DNA from: Candidatus Nitrospira allomarina | GTDB lineage: Bacteria; Nitrospirota; Nitrospiria; Nitrospirales; UBA8639 | Length of the DNA stretch: 64,000 bases | Direction of reading: 5' to 3' | NCBI RefSeq assembly: GCF_032050975.1 | Contig: NZ_CP116967.1 | Span: 1,795,001 to 1,859,000, forward strand | In this document: piece after piece, positions 10,914 to 17,728 of the stretch | Layout: every line of letters begins with the position of its first letter | Position numbering within the stretch: position 1 is the stretch's first letter | Made by a program: the position numbers and the translations under genes | The notes under the pieces: generated by a model | Seen by the model: the letters and a program-made list of their open reading frames with translations, nothing else | Told to the model about the DNA's origin: nothing | Databases searched by the model: none

Positions 10914-13229
10914 ATGAAAGCGGAAGCCGAGACTCTGGATTTTGTCACAATTAATGGGCTGCTAAAATATGGCGAGGTTATTGCCAGGCGACCGCCGGTA
11001 GAGGGGGCAGAGCCTCATCCCCCGTTAGCTTTCTTGGAAGATCGTCCGCAACGGGTGTTGGAGGCCATGGCTGCCCTACGACTGTTTGTCCGGGATGCCC
11101 AAAAAGGATTTGCCAATGCTGCGGCTTACAGAGGGGCAAGACAGGCGCTGATCCAGCAGGCCTGCGGTGGAGATGAGTTGGTGTTTTTCGCGGCGTGGAA
11201 TCAACTGCTCGCTCAGGGCGAGCTTTCTCCGTTATTCCGGGCACCAATCGGTGCTACGAATAAACCCATCCGACGTCGACCGGTGGCGATCGTCCCGCGC
11301 GAGCATATGACGCCCAATCTGGCTGAGGGTCGGATTGTCCTTGATATCGGCGATGACCGCTATTGGTTGATGCCGAGGGATTTAAGTGCCCGCACGCTGT
11401 TTTTCACGATGCGCCACGGCGTCTCCCGGATGGATAGTAAGAAGTTCCGCGTGGGGCGACGGTTGAAGAATGTCCTTGATGCCGAGCGGGGAATTCCCAA
11501 GGCTGACGCCATCGGAACCGCCCTGGTCCGGACCTTGGGCCTGGTCGGAAAACAACTGGATTTCCTGCAGCTCGACAACTACCTGGATGCGAAATCATTT
11601 GTTCATATGGTGAGTCAAAGCCCCAATACCCGACAGCTTTTTGAACGGGTCGTCTCCATCCTGTCTCCCGAGACGGCCGAGACCACCGAGCCCATCACGG
11701 AATGGGCATTGGAATCACAAGACTTTGGATGGGCCACCGGTATTGAGAAAACAATTGAAATTGAAGAAGCCGCCAAGGCCTTTGGGGTCGACACGAAGAC
11801 GGCCCAGCGTCTGATTAAGCATCCGCTGTATAGTTATCCGGGAGGACACTCCTTCTTTGAGCTGTATGTGGAGTTGGTCGATGGGTTCCATCAATTAGGC
11901 CAGAGTCACCAGGGAAAAGTGCTGTGTTTATATACGCACAGCTCAACTCTACGAGCGCTCTTAATTTTTCTCGACCCACGTCCGTTCAGTGAGGCTTTTT
12001 CCGAATTTGGAGCCTATAAGGAAGGACAGGACAACGTCGTCCTCCTCACCTATGAGCATGGGCAATTATCGGGCTACTCCACGGCCGTCGGTCTTTCTGA
12101 ACGTGAACGGGCCGTCCGCGAGGCCTGGATGAGCGTGGAACAGAGCCGCCGGGAGAAGGTGACGCTGAAGCCACGGCAAATCCGGCGAATTGTCGCTCTG
12201 GTCTCCGGTGGGGATTTTGCCGGAGCCGGTGCAGCATTGAAGGAACTCCGTGTGACAGGGAATCGATTAGGCCTGGAAGTCTATTTCGTCCAACACGGAT
12301 TTCTGGGTTTGGCAAATAATTGGATTGAGTTGGTGACGGAACAGGACACACGTGGCATGAGCAATCATGCCAGCAGCCCGATTGGCAGCAGCCGGTTTGA
12401 AGATTTTAAAGATGAGGAGGTCCAACTGGCCGCCATTCATCATCTCAAACCATTCATGAAGGATGGGGCGCTCATCGTGATGGGAGGTGATGGAAGTATG
12501 CGTGGGGCTCGCGCCATCTATGAACGGTTCGGCATCCAGGTCGTGGGGATTCCCGGTTCGATCGACGACAATATCGCCGGGACCACCTCACTCGGGGTTC
12601 AATCGGCTGTCGCCCTGGCCAACCAATCCATCGAGTCGCTGAAAGCAACCAGCGCGGCCATGGGCAGTGTGTTTTTTGTGGAGGTCATGGGGGCAGGATC
12701 AGGGCACCTGGCGCTTATGTGTGCCTACCAGGCACGAGCTGAAGGCCTGTTGGTTAATGAACATCCTGATCCGAATGCCTATATCGAGGAGGTGGTTCTG
12801 GGCACACTAAAACAGACGTTGGGCGTCCGGAACAAAAGCCATATTATTATCGTGGCCGAACGCACCCCGCACCAGTACCATCCTGAAGGGGGAGTCCATG
12901 GCCTGGTGGATTATTTCGGGAGTAGGATTGCCCAATGGACGCATCTGCAAACCCGATCAGGGCACTACCCTCTTTCGGTGGCGACCAAGGCCACCATTCT
13001 TGGCCATACCCTGCGAGGCGCCTTCCCGACTCCCGTCGACAAAACCATGGCCCAACTCTTCGCCTACGAGGCCATCCGGCGGTTGATCGAACAACCGGAA
13101 CAGGTCATCGGCTGCATGTTAGCCTACCGCGATCCAGGAACCATTCAGCCCATTCCTCTGCATGCCGTGGCTCCCAAGCCCTTTGATTGGGAACTCTTCG
13201 CGCGCATGCACGGAACCGAATTGGTCTAA
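10914..13229 (+). CDS. Fusion of a histidine phosphatase (PGM/F26BPase-like) domain and a 6-phosphofructokinase-like domain
   Basis: A 771-residue protein. The first ~130 residues are unassigned. A histidine-phosphatase domain follows, with the RHG motif at residues 167-169 (TMRHGVSR) and the second-histidine segment YTHSSTLRALL near residue 342. From about residue 425 the protein is a PfkA-type domain: ALVSGGDFAGAG, GGDGSMRGA, GIPGSIDDNIAGTT and VEVMGAGSGHLAL. The usual PGTIDND becomes PGSIDDN: the catalytic base aspartate is kept, but the following Asn-Asp pair is swapped. The Arg after EVMG is replaced by Ala. The substrate may therefore differ from fructose 6-phosphate. Start ATG 10914 has AGAGGTG upstream. 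Both fused activities act on sugar phosphates, which hints at a self-opposing or regulatory enzyme; that is inference. Confidence 0.85.
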   Translation: MKAEAETLDFVTINGLLKYGEVIARRPPVEGAEPHPPLAFLEDRPQRVLEAMAALRLFVRDAQKGFANAAAYRGARQALIQQACGGDELVFFAAWNQLLAQGELSPLFRAPIGATNKPIRRRPVAIVPREHMTPNLAEGRIVLDIGDDRYWLMPRDLSARTLFFTMRHGVSRMDSKKFRVGRRLKNVLDAERGIPKADAIGTALVRTLGLVGKQLDFLQLDNYLDAKSFVHMVSQSPNTRQLFERVVSILSPETAETTEPITEWALESQDFGWATGIEKTIEIEEAAKAFGVDTKTAQRLIKHPLYSYPGGHSFFELYVELVDGFHQLGQSHQGKVLCLYTHSSTLRALLIFLDPRPFSEAFSEFGAYKEGQDNVVLLTYEHGQLSGYSTAVGLSERERAVREAWMSVEQSRREKVTLKPRQIRRIVALVSGGDFAGAGAALKELRVTGNRLGLEVYFVQHGFLGLANNWIELVTEQDTRGMSNHASSPIGSSRFEDFKDEEVQLAAIHHLKPFMKDGALIVMGGDGSMRGARAIYERFGIQVVGIPGSIDDNIAGTTSLGVQSAVALANQSIESLKATSAAMGSVFFVEVMGAGSGHLALMCAYQARAEGLLVNEHPDPNAYIEEVVLGTLKQTLGVRNKSHIIIVAERTPHQYHPEGGVHGLVDYFGSRIAQWTHLQTRSGHYPLSVATKATILGHTLRGAFPTPVDKTMAQLFAYEAIRRLIEQPEQVIGCMLAYRDPGTIQPIPLHAVAPKPFDWELFARMHGTELV

Positions 13230-13627: not shown

Positions 13628-14533
13628 GTGAAGGTCGATAGTTGGTCTGGAACCATCATTTCCATTCCTTTCCAAAAGCACAAAATTGATGCGCTGTATT
13701 ATCATCTTGTCACGCACGATGAACATGTCCGGAACAAGCCTGTTTTACTGAGACTCCATGGACTCTTAGGGAACCTCCTGGATGAAACCGAGCATGATCT
13801 TCCGTACATTCTAGCGAAGTATGGGTATTCCTCCATTACCATCAATACCATCATGGCCAACCTGGGCCTATTTTTTGGATTTGGTATTTTCGACGAGGCG
13901 ATGCCTCAAATCCATGCTGCGTGTACCTATCTTCGACAGATGGGCTTTCGGAAAATTATTCTTGCAGGACATGGGTTGGGAGGAGCCATGGCGATTCGCT
14001 ATGGCGCGCTGCAACAGCAACAATTCCCATCTCCTGACATTCAAGGAATTATTGCCATTGCCACAGCGTATTCTTTGCCCGACACAATCCGGAAACGATG
14101 GACACGATTCGGCAGTCAACCTTCCTACCAGGAAGTCTATGAAAAGGCCAAACCACTGCATGATCCAAATCCAGGGCACGATCGACCCGATGATGAAACC
14201 ATTGTCGTCAAGCGGGCGCATGGCCCAACACTCCGACCGGAGCATTCAGAAATCTATACGTTGAAAACCTGGTGGGCCTTAGCAGGACCTGAAGCCGAGG
14301 GTCCCAAAGCGTACCAACATATAGGGGGTATCAAAGTGCCGGTCCTGTTAGTTCACGGGAAATTTGATGAGATGATTGACCCACAGGAGTGTGACGCATT
14401 GGGAAATGTGGCCAAAACAGCAGGCAACCCGGATGTGACCATGCTCCACCTTGAAGCCGGGCACGATCTTTCTGGAAAGCACGAGGAACTCGGACAAGAG
14501 GTAGTCCAATGGATTCAGGAACGATTTGAATAA
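13628..14533 (+). CDS. Alpha/beta-hydrolase fold protein, nucleophile serine replaced by glycine
   Basis: A 301-residue single-domain alpha/beta hydrolase. The HGLLGN segment near residue 45 is the oxyanion strand-loop. The nucleophile elbow reads GHGLGG, with Gly at residue 116 (codon GGG at 13973) where Ser is expected. The acid (HGKFDEMIDP) and the histidine (LEAGHDL) positions look intact. It starts with GTG at 13628 behind GAGGGGTG, ends 8 bases inside the next gene, and is paralogous to it. It may be a catalytically dead partner or use another chemistry. Substrate unknown. No signal peptide. Confidence 0.8.
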   Translation: MKVDSWSGTIISIPFQKHKIDALYYHLVTHDEHVRNKPVLLRLHGLLGNLLDETEHDLPYILAKYGYSSITINTIMANLGLFFGFGIFDEAMPQIHAACTYLRQMGFRKIILAGHGLGGAMAIRYGALQQQQFPSPDIQGIIAIATAYSLPDTIRKRWTRFGSQPSYQEVYEKAKPLHDPNPGHDRPDDETIVVKRAHGPTLRPEHSEIYTLKTWWALAGPEAEGPKAYQHIGGIKVPVLLVHGKFDEMIDPQECDALGNVAKTAGNPDVTMLHLEAGHDLSGKHEELGQEVVQWIQERFE

Positions 14534-15476
14534 GATTTCCCTTCTTCGGGACTGTCCGAAAATCTCTCTACCAAAGATTCCGATGATCCACCCTCACCAA
14601 AGACTGTTCCGGCTTCGAACACACGATGGCTTTTTGATGAGTGGGCATCTGGTCATCAAAGAAAATAATCTTGATACGAACACCCTCAAGAACCCAATTG
14701 TCATTGAAGTGCATGGTTTGCTAGGGAACTTTCTGGCACGAGGAACTCCTCGCCTTCTTCCTCAGGCGCTCCGGGAGCGGGATATTTCGTCGTTTTCCAT
14801 TAACACCAGGCTGGCATTCGCCGGGCAAATAAACGGAAGAGGGATTTTCGATGAGACGATCCATGATATAGACGCAGCAGTGGACTTCCTGACTCAAGAA
14901 GGGTTTCATCATATTTTCATCTTAGGCTATAGCCTTGGTGCCAGTATGGTCCTGCACTGGGCGGGGAATCGCCACGTTCCCAATGTCAAAGGGCTCATTC
15001 TCGAGGGGACGCATTATGCCATCCCCGATACACAGAGAAAGCGTTTGACCAAATGGAAAAGTACTCCGAGCTATGAGGAATTGTATGCACAGGCCAAGTC
15101 TATTCTAGGCGAGAATCCTTCTCACAGTGACCATGACGAAATGGTGGTGATCTACCAGGCCCGAGGGCCAAGCCGGAGCCCATTGCACGATGAAATCTTT
15201 ACCTATAAAACGTGGTGGCACATGATGGGACCGGAGGCATATTCTGCCATGGCATACAAACAGATAAACCGGGTCACATTACCCATGCTGCTGCTTAGGG
15301 GGGAAAATGATCCTCTCATCGAGGCTTGGGAAGCCGAAGCATTACAACGCATTGCACAAGAGGCAGGGAATACCTTCGTGTCTATCAAGGAAATTCCTCG
15401 CGCTGGTCATGACTGCATGGAAAACCCGGAGGCGATGCTACAAGAAATCCTTAATATACTCAGACCCTCCCGTTGA
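14526..15476 (+). CDS. Alpha/beta-hydrolase fold protein with intact catalytic serine
   Basis: Paralogue of the preceding gene. Shared features are VHGLLGNFLARGTPRLLP, the INTRLA region, PSYEELYAQAKSIL and FTYKTWWHMMGPEA. Here the elbow is GYSLGA with Ser, the acid sits in RGENDPLIE and the histidine in PRAGHDCME, so a hydrolase triad is complete. The start is uncertain: TTG at 14526 overlaps the upstream gene, while ATG at 14583 begins just before the conserved core but lacks a clear ribosome site. The tight overlap suggests co-translation and perhaps a heteromer with the defective paralogue. Substrate unknown. Confidence 0.8.
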   Translation: MNKISLLRDCPKISLPKIPMIHPHQRLFRLRTHDGFLMSGHLVIKENNLDTNTLKNPIVIEVHGLLGNFLARGTPRLLPQALRERDISSFSINTRLAFAGQINGRGIFDETIHDIDAAVDFLTQEGFHHIFILGYSLGASMVLHWAGNRHVPNVKGLILEGTHYAIPDTQRKRLTKWKSTPSYEELYAQAKSILGENPSHSDHDEMVVIYQARGPSRSPLHDEIFTYKTWWHMMGPEAYSAMAYKQINRVTLPMLLLRGENDPLIEAWEAEALQRIAQEAGNTFVSIKEIPRAGHDCMENPEAMLQEILNILRPSR

Positions 15477-15696
15477 CTGACCGCCTTCCCGTATGGGCAA
15501 GTTCACGGCATCTGCACCAATAGTAAGCCATACAAGATTCAGCACCCCTGCTTCTTAACCTGTTTTGGGCATCTCAATCACGATTTCTCTCGTTGGCGGG
15601 GGAGTTGATTTTTAAGACGGAAAGAGTAGAGTAGCGCAATCTCCCGGTCAGGAAATGGGAGGCGAACAGACTTCACCCACCACAAAGAGAGTCATC

Positions 15697-16323
15697 ATGA
15701 CAAAGAAACAACCATCCAAGAGACCTGCGAAACCGACCGAGCCTGAACCAATCAACAAACGCAAGGTGAATCCCGCCAAATTTCCATCAGACCTGCCATT
15801 GAAGGATCTCAAGGAGTTGTTCGAACCGGTCACCGGCTGGCGTAATGTCGGCTTTTTTGTTTTTCCGATAGAGACCTTGAGCCCCGCCAAGACCGTTGGT
15901 CGTGGCCGCACCAATCTGACTCTCATCAGGCCGACCATTGTTCAGGTGGATGTGAATACTTCGAGTGGGGCCAAGCCGTATGCCGGATTCGATCGTCGGG
16001 AGTCGCCCACCCGAGACCCCGCCGTGTCCATGCATTTTGAGCCGAAGGCCTATGGGATTACGGCCGTCTCGACTTACGTCATGGTGTTCACGATTGAGGT
16101 CATTGGACAGTCATCGACGTTCGACCTATCCGGTTACGCCGGAGGCGGCACGATGGCGAATAGCGGTCCGCGGACGCTCAGTGGACAGACAACGGTGTCG
16201 CTGGTGCTCAGGAACGTGCCGCCATCGGCAGAGGTCTGGGGAGCCATCACGCAGACGGCGGGCGGGCAATGGAACTGGTACACCGTGCAGGCTCGCTATC
16301 CCGCACTGGTCGTGAAAGCATAA
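15697..16323 (+). CDS. Hypothetical protein, beta-rich C-terminal domain
   Basis: A 208-residue protein of unknown function. The first 40 residues are rich in Lys and Pro and look disordered. The rest alternates hydrophobic and small residues (TYVMVFTIEVIGQSSTFDLSG, then TVSLVLRNVPPSAEVWGAI), suggesting a beta-sandwich, and ends VQARYPALVVKA. There is no signal peptide and no cysteine. ATG 15697 follows AAAGAGAG; an in-frame ATG at 15655 is possible. It stands alone. Confidence 0.65.
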   Translation: MTKKQPSKRPAKPTEPEPINKRKVNPAKFPSDLPLKDLKELFEPVTGWRNVGFFVFPIETLSPAKTVGRGRTNLTLIRPTIVQVDVNTSSGAKPYAGFDRRESPTRDPAVSMHFEPKAYGITAVSTYVMVFTIEVIGQSSTFDLSGYAGGGTMANSGPRTLSGQTTVSLVLRNVPPSAEVWGAITQTAGGQWNWYTVQARYPALVVKA

Positions 16324-17353: not shown

Positions 17354-17728
17354 ATGAAACTTTTTTCTTCTCTCGCCATCCTCAGCCTTGCGATCGTGTT
17401 TGCTACGCCGACGTTTGCCGAGCTCTATTCGCCATCCTGTGAGATCGTATTAGAAAGGGGTGAAACAGCCCGGAAAGCGCTCCTTCCATTTCGTCGGACC
17501 ATGGAAATGTTAAGAGCCCATCAATCCGGGGCATATGGTGAAGCGGAGGCCTGTGTTGCCGGGAGCCGGGGTGGTGGGGATACATCCGTCTTGTGTTCTC
17601 AGTCGCAATGGCACAGCCCGAAACCCGACACGTTCGCGTTGGCGGCCATAGACCAATACCGGCAGAAGAGAAAAACGTTTGAAGAATTATTTCAACAGGC
17701 CAGGCAGATCTGTCTGCGTGAGCCCTAA
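17354..17728 (+). CDS. Secreted four-cysteine protein (paralogue 1)
   Basis: A 124-residue protein with a cleavable signal peptide (MKLFSSLAILSLAIVFATPTFA). The mature part starts ELYSPSCEIVLERG and has four cysteines (SPSC, EACV, VLCS, QICL), probably forming two disulfides in the periplasm. It shares the start motif YSPSC, the Cys spacing, a WxxP segment and a C-terminal helix (Y-RQKR-TFEELF) with the next gene. Family not recognised. Confidence 0.72.
   Translation: MKLFSSLAILSLAIVFATPTFAELYSPSCEIVLERGETARKALLPFRRTMEMLRAHQSGAYGEAEACVAGSRGGGDTSVLCSQSQWHSPKPDTFALAAIDQYRQKRKTFEELFQQARQICLREP

Follow-up and report, generated by a model that had tools for sequence, protein, structure and literature searches.

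The window, by which we mean the whole 64,000-nt stretch of Candidatus Nitrospira allomarina DNA that was analysed (NZ_CP116967.1, 1,795,001 to 1,859,000, forward strand), contains one intact gene in which a histidine phosphatase-type domain is fused to an atypical phosphofructokinase (HP-PFK; Table 1). The open reading frame begins with ATG and runs in a single frame with no internal stop, and the sequence aagaggtga precedes it. The encoded protein consists of three parts: an N-terminal domain, a branch-1 histidine-phosphatase (HP) fold and a PFK-superfamily kinase. In the structural model, residues 1-156 are largely helical at first and then form short strands; a Pfam scan of these residues matched no family, and scanning the gene with its flanking sequence against Rfam gave no match. 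As the sequence-only reading of this DNA had stated, the gene is divergent to that of a pyruvate kinase (pyk).

Table 1. Features of the HP-PFK locus in window positions. Residue numbers are those of the fusion protein.
Feature	Position	Strand	Basis
Divergent pyruvate kinase, one of two in the genome	9005-10429	-	
HP-PFK fusion gene, 771 aa plus stop	10914-13229	+	Full-length orthologues
N-terminal domain, residues 1-156 (~156 aa)	10914-11381	+	Model, conserved region, invariant residues
Branch-1 HP fold, residues 157-392	11382-12089	+	His_Phos_1 in relatives, fold comparison
RHG motif, R167-H168-G169	11412-11420	+	Invariant, 119 copies
R240, position of dPGM Arg62	11631-11633	+	Varies in fusion family (R/E/T/K/S/H/Q)
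S268, position of dPGM acid Glu89	11715-11717	+	Ser in 118/119
H342, second catalytic His of HP fold	11937-11939	+	Invariant
PFK-superfamily kinase domain, residues 425-771	12186-13226	+	Pfam PFK (PF00365) at residues 425-722, E=2.3e-58; Z 22.9 to E. coli PFK (2pfk)
GGDGS, D526 = D103, G527 = G104, ATP-type donor signature	12483-12497	+	Signature from PMC12203962
PGSIDDN, residues 547-553; D551 = base D127; N553 = D129 position	12552-12572	+	
S585, position of Arg162	12666-12668	+	Alignment to E. coli PfkA
A594, position of Arg171 of MGR motif	12693-12695	+	Alignment to E. coli PfkA
Fusion-specific insert right after E649 (= E222), consensus RTPHRHHPxGGVHGL	12861-12905	+	
K692, position of Arg243	12987-12989	+	Alignment to E. 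coli PfkA

Strong matches to the fusion were found in 101 of 395 Nitrospirota genomes, representing 27 genera; nearly all were full length, with 61-98% identity. Full-length orthologues occurred at the level of the same genus, family, order and class, indicating that the fusion is present throughout the class Nitrospiria. The sequence-only reading had named absence of the fusion from close relatives carrying two separate genes as the sign of an assembly artefact; when a split version was sought among relatives, none was found. Candidate half-genes in two genomes (G024 and G028) were partial copies cut off by a contig end or by a run of N. Because the same fusion was present in independent assemblies and in complete genomes, including those of N. 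defluvii and N. moscoviensis, we regard the joining of two genes by an assembly or frameshift artefact as ruled out for practical purposes.

One genome scan also covered lineages beyond the phylum. The titles of the best 80 of 114 relatives were nearly all of Nitrospira or other Nitrospirota lineages, one of them Ca. Manganitrophaceae; the exceptions among these 80 were one MAG labelled Nitrospinota and one labelled uncultured Nitrosospira. A plasmid search for the fusion returned only ordinary PFKs at ~30% identity. In the tree, the fused kinases clustered together (100/100) and were set apart from the canonical PFKs of Nitrospirota by a very long branch (4.66 changes per site). Because of this length, the exact attachment of the group is not to be trusted. 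Across 119 distinct fused sequences, mean column conservation was 0.80 in the HP half and 0.85 in the PFK half.

The HP half was recognized more clearly by its fold than by its sequence. His_Phos_1 matched the window copy alone at E=0.037, below the cut-off; it matched 19 of 25 relatives, the best at 2.4e-7. A sequence profile of the HP half gave a marginal PhoE match against the PDB (E about 1), whereas the fold comparison was clear: the modelled HP fold matched solved branch-1 structures (dPGM, PhoE and phosphoserine phosphatase) with Z about 15-17, and a model of residues 1-418 alone, with a mean pLDDT of 88.5, did so with Z about 15-16. PFKFB and TIGAR were among the Foldseek matches, tied with many others, and ranking the HP half among PGM, TIGAR, PFKFB and PhoE by fold left all of them tied.

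Both halves had been said to keep their core motifs. This was correct for the kinase and, in the HP half, for the RHG motif and the second His, with R167, H168, G169 and H342 invariant in 119/119, but apparently not for the second Arg and acid Glu positions. In a profile alignment to E. coli GpmA that is weak but in register at the motifs, R240 corresponds to the second phosphate-binding Arg and S268 to the acid Glu. On this weak alignment, the position of dPGM Arg62 (residue 240) was Arg in only 78/119 copies and the acid position (residue 268) was Ser in all but one. Given these two positions, the HP half may not be a phosphatase. Beside S268, however, residue 267 was acidic in 118/119 copies and D270 was invariant, and these two could stand in for the acid Glu.

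The best family for the kinase half was bacterial PfkA (TIGR02482/PRK03202), although its TIGR02482 score of 179.7 bits fell far below the curated equivalog cut-off of 371.35. We read its residues by alignment to E. coli PfkA and then across the 119 distinct fused sequences. The fused kinase shares with PfkA the fold and the GGDG and PGxIDx motifs. The ATP-type signatures G527 (G104), G531 (G108) and G548 (G124) were kept in 119/119, as were the base Asp127 (D551) and the Mg-site Asp103 (D526), and the counterparts of Arg72, Glu222, His249 and Arg252 were also invariant. GGDD and PK mark PPi enzymes, and GGDG and PG the ATP type (PMC12203962). All copies had GGDG and PG, and the GGDD/PKTIDND signatures were absent, so a PPi-dependent PFK was rejected.

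Against this background, several PfkA residues were replaced in every one of the 119 copies: Asp129 by Asn (N553), Arg162 by Ser, Thr or Asn (residue 585), Arg171 by Ala (A594) and Arg243 by Lys (K692). The fused kinase lacks both F6P 6-phosphate arginines of PfkA, Arg162 and Arg243, the latter being the second 6-phosphate Arg of E. coli PFK. Arg162, contributed by the neighbouring subunit, binds the phosphate of F6P (PMC12203962). The canonical Nitrospirota PFKs that were checked retained the Arg162/MGR pattern, together with TIDND or a near variant of it, and one carried MGH. The allosteric site was likewise changed in all copies, with most of the PfkA residues there lost (R25V, R54E, K211V, K213N and H215S, in addition to R21K and R154K), with Glu187 kept. 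The sequence-only reading had pointed to PGSIDDN in place of PGTIDND and EVMGAG in place of EVMGR (residues 590-595). Both motifs are present and their N553 and A594 are fixed, but S549 and D552 carry little weight because they vary among copies (residue 549 was T in 65/119 and S in 54/119; residue 552 was N in 96/119 and D in 23/119), and the changes at S585 and K692 had been missed.

The kept R72, D103, G104, G108, G124, D127, E222, H249 and R252 argue for a live ATP-type kinase, whereas the acceptor site would be altered, judging by the fixed D129N, R162S, R171A and R243K changes and by the insert after E222. Judged from these residues, the acceptor pocket appears to have been rebuilt and the donor site to be intact. 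Because the middle of the kinase had low pLDDT in the full-length model, pocket geometry was not taken from it.

A pyk gene lay within ~3 kb of the fusion in 60 of the 79 Nitrospirales genomes with the full gene, as counted from coordinates, and divergent, tandem and convergent layouts were all seen. In the window's family, the adjacent pyk was about 84-99% identical to that of the window. In the sister family it was of a different type, ~47% identical to the second pyk of the window genome versus ~37% to the adjacent one. That the fusion keeps a pyk neighbour even where the type and orientation of this neighbour differ is difficult to account for unless the two are functionally connected. With phylogeny ignored, pyk was present in 79/80 genomes with the fusion and 18/37 without it (Fisher p=8e-11); genus g4 contributed much to this co-occurrence, and leaving it out gave p=1.4e-4, phylogeny again being ignored. 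The second pyruvate kinase of the window genome (G000:C1:1180867-1181847, L195) shares about 36% identity with the adjacent one and belongs to a different type. Several Nitrospirales genomes also encode another protein with a pyruvate-kinase barrel (~630-660 aa; e.g. G040:C4:144-908), which PF00224 matches less strongly and in split form.

Other PFKs were present in some of the same genomes. Outside Nitrospirales, the fusion coexisted with a second, canonical-scoring PFK in 9/9 genomes examined. The window genome also carries a PPi-type PFK (G000:C1:2179483-2180448), a member of the PFK superfamily with GGDD, PKTIDND and MGR that is ~24% identical to the fused kinase, and the two types probably occur together in further genomes. 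In 13 genomes that were >=95% complete, the fusion was the sole PFK-superfamily gene. As it coexists with a canonical or PPi-type PFK elsewhere and is alone in these 13, the fusion is not simply a housekeeping PFK, nor is it a replacement for one fixed enzyme. The HP half was also considered as a missing FBPase. GlpX was sought in the window genome and was absent, but class I FBPase was found there and in 115/117 Nitrospirales genomes, and this near universality ruled the candidate out. Genomes of ~2-3 Mb in genus g4 of the window's family (e.g. G022, G029 and G032) had neither a PFK-superfamily match nor pyruvate kinase nor the fusion and kept FBPase, which suggests that glycolysis was lost there in the catabolic direction.

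The sequence-only reading had likened the fusion to PFK-2/FBPase-2 (PFKFB) built from different folds. Both combine a sugar-phosphate kinase and a branch-1 HP domain in one chain, and the analogy is fair in that an HP domain is joined to a sugar-phosphate kinase beside another glycolytic control point; it does not extend to membership. The PFK-2 kinase has a P-loop fold and is N-terminal, whereas the Nitrospiria protein has no P-loop kinase domain, its PFK-1-type kinase is C-terminal, so that the order is reversed, and its HP half apparently does not conserve the second Arg and acid Glu positions. The branch-1 HP fold is also common to Mtb GPM2/Rv3214 and TIGAR, which are stand-alone proteins and, so far as is known, have a complete set of catalytic residues; the Nitrospiria HP half differs in being fused, in its two apparently altered positions and in belonging to a genome that already has class I FBPase. 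GPM2 is an FBPase of the HP superfamily and thus a precedent for a sugar-bisphosphatase in this fold (PMC4535450). On the kinase side, the C-terminal half of eukaryotic PFK-1 (rabbit and human) aligned with Asn at the Asp129 position and without the MGR Arg, like the fused kinase. That regulatory half has lost catalytic activity and its ATP pocket (PMC12203962), whereas the fused kinase keeps the base and the ATP signatures.

Our leading interpretation, offered tentatively, is that the fusion sets the level of a phosphorylated sugar at the switch between glycolysis and gluconeogenesis, working with pyruvate kinase. The three-part protein would have arisen by a single ancient fusion and been inherited within the class Nitrospiria. 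Judging by its intact catalytic residues, the kinase half would phosphorylate a sugar phosphate in an ATP- and Mg-dependent reaction, and its remodelled pocket may bind F6P loosely or favour another substrate. The HP half would take the phosphate off again or sense a phosphorylated metabolite; of the proposed steps, this one is the least certain. The pairing of opposing kinase and phosphatase folds on a single chain would then follow a logic like that of PFK-2/FBPase-2 with different building parts. A bolder version, which we consider rather improbable, is that the protein is an independently evolved bacterial counterpart of PFK-2/FBPase-2. By synthesizing and degrading a sugar bisphosphate that serves as a signal to control pyruvate kinase, as well as PPi-PFK, it would switch chemoautotrophic Nitrospiria from gluconeogenesis to the use of stored carbohydrate and back.

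The strongest competing explanation is an ordinary, if divergent, ATP-PFK of glycolysis that converts F6P to FBP, with the HP half as a non-catalytic ligand-binding domain replacing the lost effector site. Sequenced Nitrospira have been described with complete glycolysis (PMC8115632), and in the 13 nearly complete genomes the fusion is the sole PFK-family protein. The retained ATP signatures, base and E222/H249/R252, the loss of most effector-site residues and the eroded HP catalytic positions fit the same explanation. We nevertheless consider it unlikely, because Arg162 is lost and Arg243, Arg171 and Asp129 are changed in every copy while the canonical Nitrospirota PFKs checked keep the pattern, because a canonical PFK accompanies the fusion in other genomes, and because a mere binding domain need not keep the nucleophile H168, R167 and H342 invariant. 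The remodelled pocket would also suit a kinase for another sugar phosphate, such as sedoheptulose 7-phosphate (S7P). The HP half would then dephosphorylate what the kinase makes, or a related bisphosphate, as part of a route of pentose-phosphate metabolism or carbon storage. Some members of the PFK superfamily are known to phosphorylate S7P, but this use is described for PPi-type enzymes (PMC12203962), whereas the fused kinase has ATP-type signatures and is neighboured by a pyruvate kinase gene and no pentose-phosphate gene; this makes such a route improbable. The Arg162 and Asp129 changes could also mean a slow or dead kinase. Taken further, with catalytic positions altered in both halves of nearly every copy and with the pyk linkage, both halves could be pseudoenzymes, with the protein controlling pyruvate kinase as a sensor or a scaffold. 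We hold this to be very unlikely, since invariance of D127, the Mg-binding D103, the ATP-site glycines, RHG and the second His across 119 copies is atypical of dead enzymes.

Each domain family was already known; their combination is new as far as the open-access literature was searched, where no description of an HP-PFK fusion was found. A 2025 review of the PFK superfamily nowhere mentions a phosphatase fusion or Nitrospira, and it foresees further new domain fusions (PMC12203962). Nitrospira rank among the major nitrite oxidisers, and for at least 13 nearly complete genomes the inferred glycolysis may depend on this predicted enzyme, unless they carry a ribokinase-type PFK. A usually pyk-adjacent fusion with a uniformly changed sugar-phosphate pocket points to an undescribed switch in sugar metabolism. 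If the two halves oppose each other, a kinase/phosphatase switch at the same step would have been invented twice, from different folds.

Neither window ORF 15655-16320 (222 aa) nor 17354-17725 (124 aa) was matched by a Pfam family at E 0.001. Two PFK genes stand in tandem in a distant Nitrospirota genus (L167 and L168, in G061 and G070), one PPi-type by signature and the other with GGDGS and PASIDND. Directly downstream of HP-PFK in the window lie two tandem, overlapping alpha/beta-hydrolase genes (13628-14530 and 14526-15473), a pair that, besides the window, only the closest relative has near the fusion. In a close relative (L067, G010), ~4.4 kb of extra sequence with ORFs of 525, 366 and 401 aa separates HP-PFK from the hydrolase pair (window 13628-15473).
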